This document shows, in pieces, positions 1-63,852 of a stretch of DNA of 64,000 bases. The stretch comes from Modestobacter sp. Leaf380 (GTDB lineage: Bacteria; Actinomycetota; Actinomycetes; Mycobacteriales; Geodermatophilaceae). How positions within the stretch are numbered: position 1 is the first letter of the stretch; each line of letters opens with the position of its first letter. The notes beneath the pieces were generated by a model. It had not been told where the DNA came from and searched no databases. It saw only the letters and a program-made list of their open reading frames with translations. The translations under genes and the position numbers were made by a program. The stretch spans positions 434,001-498,000 of the forward strand of contig NZ_LMQC01000020.1 of assembly GCF_001424485.1 (NCBI RefSeq), read 5' to 3'.

Positions 1-917
1 ACGACGGGACGCCGCCGACCCCGGCCGACACCGGCGGGTACTTCGACCTGTCGACGCACAACGTGGCGCACGACTTCCGCCGCGAGGCGGTCTTCGCGCT
101 GGAGGCGATGGGCATCTCGGTGGAGTTCAGCCACCACGAGGTCGCCCCCGGCCAGCAGGAGATCGACCTGCGCTACGCCGACGCCCTGTCGATGGCCGAC
201 AACATCATGACGTTGCGGCACGTCGTCCGGGAGGTGGCGCTGGCCCAGGGCGTGCACGCCACCTTCATGCCCAAGCCGTTCACCGACCTGGCCGGCTCGG
301 CCATGCACACGCACCTGTCGCTGTTCGAGGGCGACCGCAACGCCTTCCACGACGCCAACGACCCGATGCGGCTGTCGACCACGGGCAAGCAGTTCATCGC
401 CGGGCTGCTGCGGCACGCCCGCGAGGTCACCGCCGTCACCAACCAGACGGTGAACTCCTACCGGCGGCTGCTGGCCGGCACCGAGGCCCCGACCGCGGCG
501 ACCTGGGGCAAGGCCAACCGCTCCGCGCTGGTGCGGCTGCCCTCCTACAAGCCCTCCAAGGCCAACTCGGCCCGGGTCGAGGTCCGCTCCCCGGACAGCG
601 CCTGCAACCCCTACCTGACCTTCGCGGTGCTGCTGGCCGCCGGGCTCAAGGGGATCGAGGAGGGCTACGAGCTCCCGCCCGAGGCCGAGGACGACGTCTG
701 GTCGCTCACCGACACCGAGCGCCGGGCCGCCGGCTACGAGGACCTGCCGGTCAGCCTGGGCGAGGCGCTGACCGCGATGCAGGACAGCGAGCTGGTCGCC
801 GAGACCCTCGGGGAGCACGTGTTCGAGTTCTTCCTGCGCAACAAGTGGGAGGAGTTCAACTCCTACCGGCGCAACGTGACGCCCTTCGAGCTGCGGCGGT
901 ACCTGCCGGGCCTGTGA
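1..917 (+). CDS. glnA2: Glutamine synthetase, GlnA2-like (3' part, start outside window)
   Basis: This is the C-terminal part of a type I glutamine synthetase-fold ligase; the reading frame is open to the first base, so the start lies upstream. The fragment shows the catalytic-domain signatures SHHEVAPGQQEIDLR, the KPF segment of the ATP-binding region and ARVEVRSPDSACNPY. The C-terminal position that carries the adenylylated Tyr in GlnA1 ([10 protein letters not shown]) seems to align with DDVWSL here, so adenylylation is not expected; that alignment was made by eye. Synteny with glnE matches GlnA2 of mycobacteria. In Streptomyces, GlnA2 acts as a gamma-glutamylpolyamine synthetase, so the substrate may be a polyamine rather than ammonia. 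A long hairpin follows the stop. Confidence 0.9.
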   Translation, partial: DGTPPTPADTGGYFDLSTHNVAHDFRREAVFALEAMGISVEFSHHEVAPGQQEIDLRYADALSMADNIMTLRHVVREVALAQGVHATFMPKPFTDLAGSAMHTHLSLFEGDRNAFHDANDPMRLSTTGKQFIAGLLRHAREVTAVTNQTVNSYRRLLAGTEAPTAATWGKANRSALVRLPSYKPSKANSARVEVRSPDSACNPYLTFAVLLAAGLKGIEEGYELPPEAEDDVWSLTDTERRAAGYEDLPVSLGEALTAMQDSELVAETLGEHVFEFFLRNKWEEFNSYRRNVTPFELRRYLPGL

Positions 918-10737: not shown

Positions 10738-10766
10738 TCAGATGTCGTAGTACATCGCGAACTCGT
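10738..10766. repeat. Attachment-site repeat, left copy (attL core)
   Basis: These 29 bases are identical to 19272-19300, the last 29 bases of glnA1 including its stop codon. Bases on both sides differ (10737 a versus 19271 c; 10767 t versus 19301 g), so the identity block is exactly 29 bp. This is the signature of site-specific integration into the 3' end of a gene. Confidence 0.92.
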
Positions 10767-11708: not shown

Positions 11709-11987
11709 GTGACCCAGCACCAGCGCGCGCCCGGACTGCCCCTCCTCTACACCGTCGAGGAGGTGGCCCGGGCGCTGCGCTGCTCGGAGCACTACGTACG
11801 CACACAGGCCCGTGCCGGTCGGTGGCCGCACGTTCGGATGGCCCGCGAGGCCCCGCACTTCACCGTCGTGGACGTCGAGGCTGTGCTTGAGCTGCACCGC
11901 GCCCCGGCCCCAGCGTCGACGACTGGGCTGGTGCCTCGCTCGGCGACGTACCGCCGGCGCCGCGCTGGGCCCAACATCGGGGTGTGA
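11709..11987 (+). CDS. Excisionase-like helix-turn-helix protein 1
   Basis: A 92-residue protein with a MerR-type winged-helix DNA-binding domain of the HTH_17/excisionase kind: LYTVEEVARALRCSEHYVRTQARAGRWPHVR (residues about 13-43) followed by FTVVDVEAVLELH. The initial 'TVEEVA..L..S...V....RAG' pattern is diagnostic. In integrative elements, such proteins direct integrase toward excision or act as transcriptional switches. The GTG start lies 17 bases after the previous stop, and its own stop overlaps the next start (GTGA). The basic tail (ATYRRRRAG) may add DNA contact. Confidence 0.75.
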   Translation: MTQHQRAPGLPLLYTVEEVARALRCSEHYVRTQARAGRWPHVRMAREAPHFTVVDVEAVLELHRAPAPASTTGLVPRSATYRRRRAGPNIGV

Positions 11988-12274
11988 ACCCGCCAGCTAA
12001 CGTCGTCTGCCCGCTGGCCGCCCTCCTGGCGGCTCACATCCCCGCCCCGGCACCTCAGTTCCCCGTCGCGGAGCCGGGCGGTGAGCCACCACGACTGCTG
12101 TGGACCCTGGACAAGGCCGCCGAGCGGGTGTCGATCAGCAGGACCAAGCTCTACGGGCTGATGCGCGATGACCAGCTCCCGTCGGTCCTGATGGGCGGCC
12201 GTCGCTACGTGGCCGAGCAGGACCTCGTCGCCTTCGTCGAGAAGTTGCGGGCCGGGTGGCAACCCTGGGGCTGA
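11984..12274 (+). CDS. Excisionase-like helix-turn-helix protein 2
   Basis: A 96-residue protein starting at GTG 11984, overlapping the preceding stop by 4 bases. The C-terminal half is a HTH_17/excisionase domain: LWTLDKAAERVSISRTKLYGLMRDDQLPSVLMGGRRYVAEQDLVAFVEKL, with the typical 'GRRYVAEQDLVAFV' wing and closing helix. The N-terminal 35 residues are Ala/Pro-rich and probably flexible. Coupled translation with the first HTH gene suggests that the two act together. Either could be the true excisionase (Xis). Confidence 0.78.
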   Translation: MNPPANVVCPLAALLAAHIPAPAPQFPVAEPGGEPPRLLWTLDKAAERVSISRTKLYGLMRDDQLPSVLMGGRRYVAEQDLVAFVEKLRAGWQPWG

Positions 12275-12355: not shown

Positions 12356-12856
12356 GTGGACGAACAGCACCAGGGTGGACCCCGGACGCGAGAGGAGTGC
12401 ATCGCTTCTGCCGGCCGCACGCTCGCCCAGGCCATCGCGAAGCAGAACGCGAGGACCCCTCGCGAGGCAGCGGAGGCCGCCCACCAGCGCGGTGGCCCGT
12501 CGGTTGCCGAGCTCGAGCGCCGCATCCGCACGCGCCGGGGGCTCCCGCCCAGCCCATCGGCACCCGTCGCGCGGCCGGTGTCAGAGCCGCTGCCTCCGGC
12601 GTCGACCGTCAACGTCCCGATGGTCGACACCCTGACGGCCTGCCCAGGGCCGCACCACCGCCTGGTCTACAGCGTCGACCAAGCCGCCGAGCAGCTGTCC
12701 ATTAGCACCACCGTGCTATGGGAGTTGATCCGCGCTGGCGACGTGCCCACCATCACCTATGCAGAAGGACGCCGACGTCGGGGCATCACTCACGTGGCCC
12801 TGCTGAGGTGGATCGCCGGGCGCGAGGCTGCTGCCGAGGTCAGCGCCGGCCGGTAG
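12356..12856 (+). CDS. Excisionase-like helix-turn-helix protein 3 with N-terminal extension
   Basis: A 166-residue protein whose C-terminal part (about residues 105-158) again has the MerR/excisionase layout: LVYSVDQAAEQLSISTTVLWELIRAGDVPTITYAEGRR...ITHVALLRWIAG. The N-terminal 95 residues are charged, with AEAAHQRGGPSVAELERRIRTR resembling a helical region and a Pro/Ala linker. It is unlike the first two by having this extension. The GTG start at 12356 is provisional. It overlaps the convergent membrane-protein gene by 17 bases at the 3' end. Confidence 0.65.
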   Translation: MDEQHQGGPRTREECIASAGRTLAQAIAKQNARTPREAAEAAHQRGGPSVAELERRIRTRRGLPPSPSAPVARPVSEPLPPASTVNVPMVDTLTACPGPHHRLVYSVDQAAEQLSISTTVLWELIRAGDVPTITYAEGRRRRGITHVALLRWIAGREAAAEVSAGR

Positions 12857-17356: not shown

Positions 17357-17390
17357 GAGGGGGCCATGACCGTTGGGTCATGGCCCCCTC
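17357..17390. terminator. Perfect 15-bp hairpin after the permuted tRNA
   Basis: Arms 17357-17371 and 17376-17390 are perfectly complementary with a GTTG loop. It starts 8 bases past the tRNA 5' half on the minus strand and probably ends that transcript. There is no U-run on either strand. Confidence 0.75.
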
Positions 17391-17398
17391 TATCGGAG

Positions 17399-17475
17399 AG
17401 TCGGGTGCTCTACCGCTGAGCTACAGCCCCACGAGTGGAGCCGACGGGGATCGAACCCGCGACCAACCGATTGCA
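17399..17475 (-). tRNA. Circularly permuted tRNA-Ala (UGC)
   Basis: On the minus strand the tRNA 3' half (17475-17436) comes first, then a 5-base spacer CTCGT, then the 5' half (17430-17399). Rejoined at the anticodon loop (after U33) they give a complete 72-nt tRNA. The acceptor GGGGCTG pairs with CGGCTCC over 7/7 positions, with G-U at pair 3 and a wobble at pair 6. The D-stem GCTC/GAGC encloses loop AGCGGTA. The anticodon stem CCCGA/TCGGT pairs 4 of 5, the loop CT-TGCAA gives anticodon UGC, and the T-arm is GCGGG-TTCGATC-CCCGT. Discriminator A73 is present and CCA is not encoded. T8, A14, G18, G19, A21, T33, TTC and C61 are all conserved. G3-U70 is the AlaRS identity pair. No complementary outer halves exist nearby. 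It could be a functional permuted gene or the remnant of a tandem duplication. Confidence 0.7.
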
Positions 17476-17479
17476 GACA

Positions 17480-17567
17480 GGATGCATCCACACGCTGACC
17501 CGTGGCAAGGAACCCACGCTGGGTCAACCCCATCGGGTGGCCCTCCTACGCCCCGACCCGTCGGGGC
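17480..17567 (-). other. Structured leader upstream of the permuted tRNA
   Basis: On the minus strand, three inverted repeats precede the tRNA 3' half. They are a 7-bp hairpin with arms GCCCCGA/TCGGGGC (17550-17567), a two-part hairpin with TGACCC/GGGTCA outer and GTGG/CCAC inner stems (17496-17526), and the palindrome GGATGCATCC (17480-17489), which ends 4 bases before the tRNA segment. Such density in non-coding DNA suggests a structured transcript. The function is not known. Confidence 0.4.
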
Positions 17568-17707: not shown

Positions 17708-17735
17708 TTGACGCAAGCGTGTGTGGGATGATAGT
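17708..17735 (+). promoter_or_regulatory. Promoter of the XRE regulator
   Basis: TTGACG (17708-17713) and GATAGT (17730-17735) are separated by 16 bases, close to the sigma-70-type consensus. Transcription would begin near 17742-17745, almost at the GTG start codon, so the mRNA is likely leaderless. Confidence 0.55.
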
Positions 17736-17756
17736 CTTTGTCTTGTGGCGACAAAG
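17736..17756. promoter_or_regulatory. Inverted-repeat operator at the regulator start codon
   Basis: CTTTGTC and GACAAAG form a perfect 7-bp inverted repeat separated by 7 bases that include the GTG start. A related TGTC-CC-GACA palindrome lies at about 17674-17683. Position over the promoter and start fits autorepression by the XRE protein; this is inferred. Confidence 0.5.
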
Positions 17757-18191
17757 AATGGCAGCGATCTAGAGGGGCTTGTGGGGCGACACGTCCGGCA
17801 GCTGCGGGAGCAGCGCGGACTTACGCAGACCCAGCTCGGGGTGCTCGCCAACCTCGGCTCCGGCAACCAGTCGCTCATCGCCAAGCTGGAGGCCGGCCAG
17901 CGGCCGATCCGCGTGAACGAGGTCGACGCTCTCGCTGCGGCGCTCGGTGTACCCCTCGCCGTGCTGCTTGAGCGGTCTCCGACGCAGGAGGTAGCCCGAG
18001 CCGCGGCTGCCCTTGAGCGGGCTCAACTGGCACTGGAAGAGATCCTCATGCGGCAGATGGATCTCGACGACGAGATGAAGAAGCTGGCGCCCATGCGCGA
18101 GCGCTACATCGCTGAGATCACGCGGTGCGAAGCCCGACTCCAGGCGGCGAAGGAGAAGGAAGATCGTGGCGAGCCTCGCGAAGAGGCCTGA
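17745..18191 (+). CDS. XRE-family transcriptional regulator
   Basis: A 148-residue DNA-binding protein. Residues about 10-65 form a Cro/C1-type helix-turn-helix: VRQLREQRGLTQTQLGVLANLGSGNQSLIAKLEAGQRPIRVNEVDALAAALGVPLAVLL. The C-terminal half is a charged coiled coil (LERAQLALEEILMRQMDLDDEMKKLAPMRERYIAEITRCEARLQAAKEKE), probably for dimerisation. The GTG at 17745 is preferred because the promoter -10 element ends 9 bases upstream. It overlaps the integrase start by 26 bases, so the regulator and the integrase are likely co-expressed. Its probable role is to keep the element quiescent. Confidence 0.85.
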   Translation: MATKNGSDLEGLVGRHVRQLREQRGLTQTQLGVLANLGSGNQSLIAKLEAGQRPIRVNEVDALAAALGVPLAVLLERSPTQEVARAAAALERAQLALEEILMRQMDLDDEMKKLAPMRERYIAEITRCEARLQAAKEKEDRGEPREEA

Positions 18192-19271
18192 CGGTCGCTG
18201 GATGGCTCGGTACCGGGACCTCGCCGGCAAAGAGCACGCCCGCCACTTCGACCGGAAGATCGACGGCCAGCGCTGGCTTGACGAGGTCACCACGGCGGTC
18301 GTCACGGGCGCCTACATCGACCCGCGGACGGCCCGCACGACGGTGGGGGAGTGGGCCGAGACGTGGCTGGCCGGCTACGGCACCCGGCGGGCCAGCACGG
18401 TGCGCCAGGCCGAGGTGCACCTGGCGCACATCACTGCTGCGTTCGGGCCGCGCCGGCTCTCCTCGGTGAAGCCGTCCGACGTCCGGTCCTGGACGACTGG
18501 GCTGCGCGCCCAGGGCTTGGCCGACAGCTACGTCTACGCGCTCCACAGCCGGTTGTCCCAGGTCATGAGCGACGCCGTGCACGACGGGCTGATCCCGAGG
18601 AACCCGTGCTCGAGGCGGACCAGCCCGGGCGCCGGCAAGCAGCGGCCCTACGTCGCGACCACGGAGCAGGTCTGGGCGCTGCACGACGCCGTCCCCGAGC
18701 ACTTGCAGCCCGCCGTCCTGCTTGGCGCCTTCGTCGGCCTGTGCACGGCCGAGGTGGTGGGCCTGCGCGTCGACGACGTCGACTTCATGCGCGGCATCGT
18801 CCGGCCGGTGCAGCAGGGCGACGGACAGCCGCTGAAGACCGAGACGTCTCGCACGCCGCTGCCCATCCCGGACGAGCTCGCGCTGACCCTGGCGGCCGCG
18901 GTGAAGCGGTGGGGGAGTGACCGACTGGTGACCGACGGCATAGGGGGCCCGTCATCGACGTGGGCGATCGAGCGCGCCGTGCGGGCGGCCCGGCCGAAGG
19001 TGGCCGGCCTACCGGTGGGGTTCCGGTTCCACGACCTGCGGCACTACCTGGCGAGCCTGCTCATCGCGTCCGGGCTCGACGTCAAGGTCGTGCAGCACCG
19101 GCTCCGGCACGGGTCAGCCAGCACGACGCTGGACACCTACGGGCACCTGATGCCCGACAGAGACGAGTCCGCGCGAGCCGCCGTGGGTGCAGTGCTGGCG
19201 ACTCGCGCGGACTCTGTGCGGACTTCTGCCCCTGACCTGCGGAGAACCCGCAGGTCAGGGGCGAGTGTCAC

Positions 19272-19284
<13 letters not shown>
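18166..19284 (+). CDS. int: Tyrosine recombinase/integrase with a changed catalytic residue
   Basis: A 372-residue phage-type integrase with an AP2-like N-terminal arm-binding domain (residues about 1-55, [19 protein letters not shown]), a SAM-like core-binding domain (about 58-150) and a catalytic domain. Lys224 (LKTETSR), His289 and Arg292 (FHDLRH), His315 (RHGSAS) and nucleophile Tyr325 (LDTYGH) are present. The position of the first catalytic Arg (normally GLRxxE) reads GLCTAE, so it is Cys193; its TGC codon (18742-18744) is one transition from CGC. The GTG at 18166 has GGAGAAGGAAG upstream. The last codons and stop lie inside the attachment core, so its C-terminus is set by the target sequence. 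It directs integration into glnA1; activity is doubtful with Cys193. Confidence 0.93.
19207..19223. promoter_or_regulatory. Right-end GCGGAC sites (candidate integrase arm sites)
   Basis: GCGGACT occurs at 19207 and 19218 within the 3' end of the integrase gene, matching the four GCGGAC copies at 10869-10904. Repeats of one short word near both attachment cores are typical of arm-type integrase sites. Binding is inferred. Confidence 0.4.
19229..19261 (-). terminator. Element-supplied terminator for glnA1
   Basis: A perfect 14-bp stem (CCCCTGACCTGCGG and its complement) with a 5-base loop lies 11 bases beyond the glnA1 stop, inside the element. It replaces the chromosomal terminator now at 10685-10722. 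It also lies in the integrase coding sequence, and ACCTGCGG matches the left-end repeats. Confidence 0.7.
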
Positions 19285-20708
<1,424 letters not shown>

Positions 20709-32763: not shown

Positions 32764-34521
32764 ATGTCCGAGCCCCCGCCGTCCACCCCCGCGGCCCCAC
32801 CCGTCGTCCCGGGGTACGTGCTGGAGGAGCTGCTGGGACGCGGTGGCTCCGGTGAGGTGTGGCGGGCGCGTCCTCGCGGAGGCGGTGTCGGGGTCGCGGT
32901 GAAGGTGCTGCACGTCGGCGACCCCGCCCGTCAGGACCGGGAGGCCGCGCTGCTGGCGGAGCTCGACCACCCGCACCTGGTCCGGCTCGTCGAGGTCGTG
33001 CACCGGGGGCTGCGCGGCGGGGGCACCCAGGTGGCCCTGGTGCTGGACCTGCTGCCCGGCGGCAGCCTGGCCCGGCTGCTCGCCCGCCGGGGGCGACTGC
33101 GCCCGGGCGAGGTGGTCACCGCGATCGCGCCGGTCGCTGCCGCGCTGGCCCACGCGCACGAGCGCGGCATCGTGCACGGCGACCTCTCCCCGGGCAACGT
33201 GGTCTTCACCGCCGAGGGCCGTCCGGTGCTCACCGACCTGGGCGTGGGCCGGGTGCTCGGGCAGACCTCCGACGTCGAGGTCACCCCGGCCTACGTCGAC
33301 CCGGTGGTGGCGCGGGGCGGTGCGCCGGGGCCGGCCTCCGACGTCTTCGGCGTGGCGGCGGCGGCGTTCCACGCCCTCACCGGCGTCCCGCCGTGGAACG
33401 CCGCCGGTGCGGCCGCCACGCTGCGGGTCGCCGCCGAGGGGCAGGTGCCCGACCTCGGGCTGCTCGCCCCCGAGGCCCCCGAGGAGCTGGTGGCCGTGGT
33501 CGAGCGCGGGTTGTCCCCGCACCCGCACCTGCGCGGCACCGCCGCGGCCTTCGCCCTGGACCTGCGGCACGCCTGCCGCCCCGAGCGGATCGCGATGCCC
33601 CGCTCCGGGGTGGAGGACGCGCTGCTGGCCCGCACCGGTCAGGTGTCCCGCACCGAGCTGACCCACCAGGTGCGCCGCCCGCCGGGGGCGCACTCCGCTC
33701 CGGAGGACCGGGGCCGGTGGGCCACGCTGCGGTCACGGGTGCCACTCGGGTCCAGGGGAGTGGTCGCCGCCGCCCGCCGGACGGCGGCTGCCGTTGCCGT
33801 CCTCGCCGCCCTGGCCGCGGCGGTGTGGGTGGGGGTGCAGTGGGGCGGGACCGGTGCGGTCCCCGACGCCGCCGTCCCCGCTGCCGGGTCGGCGGAGCTG
33901 GCGACCGGGCCGGACGCGGGAGAGCCGAGGCCGCCGGAGTCCACGTCCCCGGCGACGACGTCCCCAGGCACGTCGTCGCCTGGACCCAGCACGACCGCGG
34001 GACCCAGCACGACAGCGGGACCCAGCACGACGGCAGGACCCAGGACGACGCCGGGATCGAACACGGCGCCCGGGCCCGGCCCCGTGCCGACCGCCGCCCC
34101 GGGGGCGCCGACGGCCCCCGCCGACGCCGCCGGCTGGCAGGCCCTGGTCAGCAGCCTGTACGAGGCCCGCGCCGACGCCTACGCAGCGGGGGCCGCCGGT
34201 CAGCTGAGCGGGGTCTACGCAGCTGACAGCCCGCTGCTGGCCGCGGACACGGCCGGGCTGACCGCGGTGACCGCAGCCGGCGGACGCTGGTCCGGGTTCG
34301 CCCCGGTGGTCGAGGAGGTCACCGCGACCACCGCGCCAGCACCGCAGGGCGACTCCGACCAGGTGGTCCTCACCCTGGTCGACCGGGTGCCGGCCTACGC
34401 GGTCGAGGACCGGGAGGGCAGACGCACCGAGCTGGCCGGCCGGGAGCCCGCCGAGGTCACGATGACCCTGGTCCGGACGCCGGCGGGCTGGCGGGTGCTG
34501 GACGCCCGTCGCGGCCCGTGA
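32764..34521 (+). CDS. Transmembrane Ser/Thr protein kinase
   Basis: A 585-residue PknB-type kinase. Gly-rich loop GRGGSGEVW (about residues 26-34), VAVK Lys, catalytic loop HGDLSPGNVVF (HGD rather than HRD, with catalytic Asp and Asn kept) and DLG in place of DFG are present. A TM helix spans about residues 340-360. A Pro/Ser/Thr-rich linker includes three exact repeats of PSTTAG encoded by an 18-bp DNA repeat (about 33985-34040). The extracellular C-terminal domain (about 460-585) has no PASTA pattern. It probably phosphorylates envelope proteins. TACCGT lies 8 bases before the ATG. HGD and DLG are unusual, but the key catalytic residues remain. Confidence 0.9.
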   Translation: MSEPPPSTPAAPPVVPGYVLEELLGRGGSGEVWRARPRGGGVGVAVKVLHVGDPARQDREAALLAELDHPHLVRLVEVVHRGLRGGGTQVALVLDLLPGGSLARLLARRGRLRPGEVVTAIAPVAAALAHAHERGIVHGDLSPGNVVFTAEGRPVLTDLGVGRVLGQTSDVEVTPAYVDPVVARGGAPGPASDVFGVAAAAFHALTGVPPWNAAGAAATLRVAAEGQVPDLGLLAPEAPEELVAVVERGLSPHPHLRGTAAAFALDLRHACRPERIAMPRSGVEDALLARTGQVSRTELTHQVRRPPGAHSAPEDRGRWATLRSRVPLGSRGVVAAARRTAAAVAVLAALAAAVWVGVQWGGTGAVPDAAVPAAGSAELATGPDAGEPRPPESTSPATTSPGTSSPGPSTTAGPSTTAGPSTTAGPRTTPGSNTAPGPGPVPTAAPGAPTAPADAAGWQALVSSLYEARADAYAAGAAGQLSGVYAADSPLLAADTAGLTAVTAAGGRWSGFAPVVEEVTATTAPAPQGDSDQVVLTLVDRVPAYAVEDREGRRTELAGREPAEVTMTLVRTPAGWRVLDARRGP

Positions 34522-63600: not shown

Positions 63601-63652
63601 GTCCTTCGTCCGGTCGGGCACACGTCACCTCATCGGGTGACCTCGGCCGGTC

Positions 63653-63823
63653 ACCGCCGAACTGCTCGTCCCCCGGGGCGGGCGGACCGGGGACCCACCG
63701 CAGTCCTGGGGTGAGTTCTCGCGCGGGCCACCTCGGTGACCCGCACGCGCCGATCCCGGTCGGAGCGCAGAGATAGGGCGTCGTCTTCCACGCCCGAACC
63801 CGTCAGCTAACTCGGTAGGCGGT
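63653..63823 (+). promoter_or_regulatory. c-di-AMP riboswitch (ydaO-yuaA type)
   Basis: The segment matches the ydaO consensus in order: ACCGCCGAACTGCTCGTCC at the 5' side, GGGGACCCACCGC and GGGGTGAGTTCTC in the middle, then an AGGGCG turn and CCCGAACCCGTCAGCTAACT-type 3' core, ending GTAGGCGGT. The P1 arms ACCGCC (63653-63658) and GGCGGT (63818-63823) pair. This class turns expression off when c-di-AMP is bound and in actinobacteria typically precedes cell-wall hydrolase or resuscitation-factor genes, consistent with the exported protein that follows. I have not run a covariance model. Confidence 0.88.
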
Positions 63824-63852
63824 CAGACGTGGAAGAAGGAGCTCGCGCGCCC

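Follow-up and report, generated by a model that had tools for sequence, protein, structure and literature searches.

A Y RNA-like module within an integrative element of Modestobacter sp. Leaf380, a probable Ro-less derivative of bacterial Y RNAs

The current view of Y RNAs is that they tether Ro60 to an enzyme that handles RNA. In bacteria, the YrlA type combines a stem to which the Ro homologue is bound with a domain that resembles a tRNA in its D, T and acceptor arms; this domain is a ligand of PNPase and a target of modification by DusA and TruB (PMC8394870, in excerpt). The bacterial Y RNA 6CU1 superposes on tRNAs by circular permutation (PMC11472068, in excerpt), and inhibition of an anticodon nuclease has been raised as a possible activity of the tRNA-like domain (PMC7790460, in excerpt). 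Two other described systems share part of this arrangement. In the permuted tRNA genes of archaea and algae the 3' half lies ahead of the 5' half, the product being cut and religated and having an open acceptor (PMC3978253, in excerpt); in the permuted two-piece tmRNA (RF04321) the acceptor 5' strand comes only after the T arm and the acceptor 3' strand. A literature search, with the main Y RNA papers outside its reach, returned no Ro-less Y RNA on a mobile element. The locus described here is in our assessment probably a noncoding RNA gene that stems from a bacterial Y RNA of the YrlA type, a Ro-less derivative that would act via tRNA mimicry and is carried as cargo by an 8.6-kb element.

The window, i.e. 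the whole 64,000-nucleotide stretch that was analysed (contig NZ_LMQC01000020.1, positions 434,001 to 498,000), harbors the tRNA-like (effector) module of this gene on its minus strand at 17400-17471. Read from 17471 to 17400, the module places the T arm and the acceptor 3' strand ahead of the acceptor 5' strand and the D arm, so that the initial annotation was right in describing a 3' half that precedes a 5' half with circularly permuted arms. The 5' strand of a short inner stem (17466-17470, equivalent to tRNA positions 39-43) is followed by the T arm (17444-17460), the tRNA 3' strand of the acceptor stem, here first (CGGCTCC, 17437-17443), the acceptor loop ACTCGT (17431-17436), the tRNA 5' strand of the acceptor stem, here second (GGGGCTG, 17424-17430), the D arm (17407-17421) and the inner-stem 3' strand CCCGA (17401-17405, equivalent to positions 27-31). 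The T and D arms were assigned from sequence and from the covariance model R2 described below, and the inner stem from stem counts and R2. A recount of the acceptor stem gave the same seven of seven pairs, G3.U70 among them, as originally reported, and four of five pairs can form in the anticodon-stem geometry. The intervening bases, first described as a 5-base spacer, are the 6-nt ACTCGT, and in the predicted fold its end bases pair, i.e. A73 with the final base, to give an 8-bp hairpin closing on a CUCG tetraloop; these bases thus act as a hairpin loop rather than as a spacer. The T, acceptor and D hairpins are present in the predicted fold of a 211-nt segment, in which the inner-stem 3' strand pairs instead with an upstream stretch; a 116-nt segment was predicted to adopt a different shape, with a stability no better than that of shuffled sequences (z = -0.56).

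Kinship with Y RNAs was assessed with two covariance models of our own. R1 was built from 8 sequences, including the window RNA and two Klenkia sequences, and R2 from 26 bacterial and 3 phage Y RNAs (29 in total), each taken from a Ro-bearing genome and none from the Geodermatophilaceae, the family to which the window belongs. In the R2 alignment 95.9% of cells are paired and covariation reaches 0.569, versus 0.173 after shuffling; its inner stem is 83.4% paired, with double changes at all five pairs. Searched against the window, R2 assigned the module 70.6 bits (E = 4e-18 over 64 kb), which is inside the interval covered by Ro-linked Y RNAs, and the second-best match 16.3 bits. Since the model is independent of the family, a difference of this size argues against a chance match, in agreement with the earlier claim that the two pieces belong together. 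As a control, 36 loci with ordinary neighboring tRNAs, where the match overlaps two called tRNAs (33 of 36) or one (3 of 36), scored at most 48.8 bits with the same model.

The only Rfam match in the window at curated thresholds was a distant riboswitch. When the threshold was relaxed, YrlA (RF02553) ranked first at the module, at 30.8 bits (E = 8e-5, 17400-17468), well below the gathering score of 69 bits and restricted to the inner model part, positions 23-88 of 114. This threshold is not diagnostic in the actinobacterial phylum, because Ro-linked loci fall below it as well: 11 of 12 such loci were matched, all 11 under 69 bits (best 50.8), and the remaining one, L123, had no match at E = 0.001. 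Actinobacterial Y RNAs can therefore score below the Rfam threshold (11 of 11 scored) and pass for permuted tRNA genes. Used as a genome search, the Rfam YrlA model also gave matches at E <= 0.001 in 7 of 14 control genomes; hence, a YrlA match was not counted as evidence by itself, and R1, R2 and an ARAGORN check were used. Coverage of the YrlA model spanned positions 1-114 in 10 of the 12 Ro-linked loci and the inner part only in L192. The inner part was likewise all that was matched in the window (23-88) and in two related family copies described below, G004 (27-81) and G099 (14-95); G061 gave no YrlA match in the same run as these two, and G003 gave none in one run and a full-length one (1-114, 33.3 bits) in another. 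The likeness to YrlA lies in the arm order, the T- and D-arm sequences, the closed acceptor, the inner stem and the R2 score, and the differences in the partial model match, in the lack of a detected outer pairing or Ro60 gene and in the location within an integrative element. RF04321 was also matched at the module, at 23.8 bits against a gathering score of 47. The permuted tmRNA was rejected as an identification, this Rfam match being weak and the window RNA having, in contrast to that tmRNA, a full, normal tRNA D arm.

The association of such RNAs with Ro60 was examined across increasingly broad phylogenetic levels. At the order level, 89 of 397 genomes matched R1 at E = 1e-7, and 25 new loci were examined, 13 of which overlap two called tRNAs and 12 of which do not. 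TROVE was found in 12/12 genomes of the latter group, with a Ro frame within the 3-kb stretch at all 12 loci. At the class level (44 of 394 genomes matching at E = 1e-9), 8 of the 28 new loci examined overlap two called tRNAs and are without Ro; among the other 20, a Ro frame lies in the 3-kb locus in 18, and for L103 and L128 TROVE is farther off, 3.2 kb away or on another contig. Hence, all 32 examined loci of order and class that are no tRNA pair come from genomes with Ro60/TROVE, which lies beside the RNA in 30; 25 of these loci overlap no called tRNA and 7 overlap one. DNA similar to the module was also detected on plasmids of Rhizobium, where it adjoins rtcR and is flanked by the genes of an RNA-binding protein and of RtcB (Rfam calls a full YrlA in Rhizobium CIAT894), in the Mycobacterium phages Myrna and Phabba, in the Microbacterium phage A3Wally and in a Miltoncostaea plasmid. 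A TROVE protein is encoded by each of these phages; that of A3Wally, which is annotated as Ro-like, lies at 2.6 kb from the RNA, and in Myrna and Phabba the distance is about 36 kb. The core and inner stem of the Ro-linked actinobacterial RNAs (L053-L060, L101-L128 and others) and of the phage RNAs can be aligned with the window RNA; the actinobacterial ones differ from it in having, for nearly all, Ro in the same locus. Pattern scans, which served for naming and leads only, added 123 examined loci among the matches listed, 100 of them overlapping two called tRNAs. Among the 23 others listed, six with one called tRNA and no Ro are tRNA pairs, most of them near a contig or stretch end, and the remaining 17 have Ro in the stretch in ten cases. 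The seven listed loci without it (L144, L147, L154, L168, L222, L232 and L254), two of which are the RNAs of G003 (L154) and G099 (L232), carry little weight in this respect, the stretches being short. An annotated tRNA-Asp of phage Myrna (NC_011273.1, 95152-95223; L002 1475-1546), which overlaps the Y RNA and is not called by ARAGORN, is probably a misannotated Y RNA. On the Miltoncostaea oceani plasmid (L005 3005-3307), two Y-like matches (R2 65.2 and 56.1 bits) lie inside a tRNA array, and no TROVE was found on the plasmid, which alone was covered.

Within the Geodermatophilaceae, R1 retrieved six loci above 50 bits from 112 genomes: the window (genome G000), the two Klenkia copies G003 and G004, and G099, G090 and G061. 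The best R1 scores of other family genomes, among the matches listed, did not exceed 44.6 bits, and 24 examined loci among these lower-scoring matches overlap two called tRNAs (21 loci) or one (3 loci). The tRNA-like module is thus kept in 6 of 112 genomes, and four of the copies lie between direct repeats at glnA or tRNA genes. R2 scored the other five copies at 58.5 (G099), 58.3 (G004), 55.3 (G090), 49.9 (G003) and 38.1 bits (G061), the window copy being the best preserved of the six. The score of G061 is within the range of tRNA pairs and that of G003 barely above it, the identity of both resting on the alignment and on the lack of called tRNAs at these loci. Similarity between loci is centered on the RNA: G003 and G004 have 239 bp in common at 74%, their differences including paired changes in the acceptor stem and in a downstream hairpin, and the similarity of G099 to G090 is limited to 261 bp (90%) surrounding the RNA. 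Relatives that keep both halves in the same order with compensatory changes in the acceptor stem, a check proposed in the initial annotation, were found in Klenkia, where position 73 is paired and a UUCG or UCCG tetraloop closes off the acceptor. An all-against-all comparison revealed no protein common to all six loci; integrases are shared by the window and G061, and one small protein by G004 and G061. A blastn search of the G004 RNA against phages and plasmids gave no match. TROVE (Pfam) was detected in 0 of 112 Geodermatophilaceae genomes, and a second Ro profile that includes Rhizobium and phage Ro, run without a positive control, was likewise negative in all 112; the protein next to the Y RNA of Rhizobium CIAT894 was overlooked by Pfam TROVE, so that a divergent Ro60 could go undetected.

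The locus had first been interpreted as a tRNA-Ala(UGC) gene that is truly circularly permuted, whose product would be cut, joined at the anticodon loop and opened at the acceptor loop. ARAGORN called no tRNA at 17400-17471 on the minus strand. The halves of 23 comparable RNAs were then joined in silico, with 72 joins each and the ARAGORN threshold lowered to 95%. The joined window halves read U33, a UGC anticodon and G3.U70, and 51 of their 72 joins were called as tRNA (G061, 3 of 72). The claim that the halves join into a tRNA therefore stands, but it is not specific, since calls were obtained for 23 of 23 RNAs, including all 17 from outside the family (27-63 of 72 joins each); many of these calls carry odd anticodons, and the procedure is to be read as a specificity test only. 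Stem counts lead to the same result: the acceptor is paired 7/7 in 20 of the 23 RNAs, and at least four of five inner-stem pairs, taken as the best of three variable-loop lengths, are present in 18 of 23, among them 11 of the 12 order-level Ro-linked Y RNAs. Conservation of the anticodon-loop sequence and of G3.U70, which had been taken as the alanine identity pair, was not seen among relatives: the loops differ, and G3.U70 occurs in 3 of 23 RNAs, namely the window, G099 and G090. No particular alanine identity could be confirmed. Joining the halves of the Miltoncostaea plasmid RNA that lies in the tRNA array gives a loop resembling that of Thr(UGU), which fits a permuted tRNA. The acceptor of the window RNA, in turn, closes on a short loop, in contrast to the open acceptor of permuted tRNAs, and we know of no bacterial splicing system for such a precursor. 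Given that the permutation is the known topology of bacterial Y RNAs, that a model trained on Ro-linked Y RNAs matches it strongly and that Ro-linked Y RNAs behave alike in joining and in stem counts, the permuted tRNA gene was rejected and appears very improbable.

The RNA was also thought to reside on a mobile element, and this proved correct. An 8.6-kb integrase-bearing element at the glnA 3' end is delimited, according to a repeat search, by 29-bp direct repeats of that gene end, the left att at 10738-10766 and the right att at 19272-19300, inside the 3' end of glnA (19272-20708, minus strand). Its GC content is 68.9%, versus 73.5% around it. On the plus strand the element encodes an XRE-type repressor (17721-18191; Pfam HTH_31/HTH_3), a tyrosine integrase (18166-19284; PF00589), two HTH_17-like, excisionase-like proteins (11709-12274), the first of them just under the Pfam cut-off, and a third HTH_17 protein (12356-12856). 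Many elements use tRNA genes as integration sites, and this, together with the integrase gene 0.7 kb from the RNA and the two family copies (G003 and G061) that lie between repeats at tRNA-Ala(GGC), is what one would expect of an att site, or of a truncated tandem tRNA that remained after an element had inserted at a tRNA gene. This explanation, whose degenerate-tandem form had been the main alternative from the outset, was rejected and is given next to no credence: the boundary repeats, at 10738 and 19272, map to glnA far from the RNA, which is not itself a direct repeat at the element boundary; no 13-base match to the RNA exists elsewhere in the window; neighboring-tRNA loci remain at or below 48.8 bits with R2; and the Klenkia acceptors close on a tetraloop with compensatory changes. 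The G004 copy lies in a 1.9-kb stretch between repeats at tRNA-Met, no flanking repeats were found for G099 and G090, and integrases were seen only in the window and G061. Among nine element proteins, PADLOC recognized only the product of the window's XRE gene (as control protein, capH, RmrA and others) and, in G061, PDC-S44. The G004 stretch (L013 8240-10136, about 1.9 kb) comprises 37-bp direct repeats at tRNA-Met that enclose fragments of a disrupted gene along with the Y-like RNA. The G061 homologue of this gene weakly matches GPP34, below the cut-off. No integrase was seen in the stretch, which is possibly a minimal mobile unit. The G061 island (L080 4285-17279), which lies between tRNA-Ala(GGC) repeats, carries two integrases and the protein matching PDC-S44, a candidate defence family, alongside the Y-like RNA.

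The outer stem of paired 5' and 3' ends, which binds Ro60 in Y RNAs, was not detected in the six family copies. Scored against shuffled sequences, the pairing between upstream and downstream flanks had a mean z of -2.1 in the 26 bacterial Ro-linked RNAs (z <= -1.8 in 17 of 26) versus -0.2 in the family copies, with +0.62 for the window duplex (Mann-Whitney P = 3e-4, or 9e-4 without G090, phage and Rhizobium rows being left out). The two Rhizobium Y RNAs gave -0.5 and -1.5, and the three phage Y RNAs 0.0, -0.3 and -0.8; since these come from Ro-bearing phages and fail too, as does the window RNA, the measure is crude and a missing stem is no proof of Ro independence. An exact GGTTAC occurs upstream of 17 of the 29 comparison RNAs (17 of the 26 bacterial ones) and of none of the six family copies. 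Predicted folds place hairpins close to the module on both sides on the minus strand, a downstream one of 15 bp at 17357-17390, without a T run and with no terminator match, and an upstream one at 17494-17528. Neither a promoter match on the minus strand nor a T-run terminator was found at the RNA.

These observations also bear on whether the RNA is a pseudogene in decay. In that case a Y RNA together with its Ro60 gene would once have been present on the element or on an ancestor of it, Ro60 and the stem for Ro would have been lost, and the tRNA-like part would now be eroding. Such decay would account for the lack of a detected Ro, of outer pairing and of a promoter match, for the five and six of seven acceptor pairs in G061 and G003, respectively, and for their R2 scores of 38.1 and 49.9 bits, low as in decaying copies. 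It is harder to reconcile with the window copy, which combines an intact acceptor with a score in the range of Ro-linked Y RNAs, with similarity that is centered on the RNA in both pairs of copies compared, with the paired changes in the acceptor stem and downstream hairpin of the Klenkia copies, and with the occurrence of copies at glnA, at tRNA-Ala (two) and at tRNA-Met. In view of the phage controls, and of the alignment of G003 to YrlA over the full model length, we weighed decay slightly higher, and a functional Ro-less derivative slightly lower, than before; decay is nonetheless considered unlikely.

Under the preferred reading of a Ro-less Y RNA derivative, the RNA most likely acts without Ro, given that no Ro60 was detected and no outer-stem pairing was seen. 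The gene would be transcribed, and its transcript would fold as a tRNA-like L, circularly permuted, from the T arm, the closed acceptor hairpin and the D arm, with the short inner stem standing in for the anticodon arm. In ordinary Y RNAs, the outer stem serves to bind Ro60, and the tRNA-like module binds the effector PNPase and undergoes modification by tRNA enzymes. The window RNA, by analogy, may serve as a cofactor or a decoy by binding PNPase, enzymes that modify tRNA or nucleases that cut it; the partner suggested by comparison with known Y RNAs would be PNPase or tRNA enzymes, and the notion of a decoy for a tRNA-cutting enzyme is an idea drawn from PMC7790460 (in excerpt). For the family as a whole, we tentatively propose that mobile elements carry a free-standing tRNA mimic, namely a Y RNA reduced to its effector half, with Ro60 and the stem that binds it lost and hairpins acquired on the flanks. 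Acting by itself, the mimic would benefit the element as a decoy for enzymes that cut or modify tRNA or as an RNA cofactor of PNPase. This is a generalization we hold with more doubt than confidence. If it is true, a mobile form devoid of Ro60 and of the Ro stem would show that the tRNA-like module is functional by itself, and would offer a small system in which to find that function.

Ro-less tRNA mimics may form a wider class, as suggested by comparison with a viral contig, L254. This contig encodes a Y-like module (1328-1400, 70.2 bits), shortly followed by a hairpin with a T run, and no Ro was found in the 5.1 kb examined of its 49.6 kb. In Nocardia jinanensis (L168 3068-3140), a Y-like RNA scores 76.9 bits, with no Ro frame in the surrounding 4.3 kb. 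Elsewhere in the window, ARAGORN called an 89-nt tRNA-Arg(CCG) on the minus strand at 34043-34131, which is not reported by the Rfam tRNA model at threshold and is possibly a false call, and a c-di-AMP riboswitch (RF00379, 55.6 bits) is located on the plus strand at 63645-63836.
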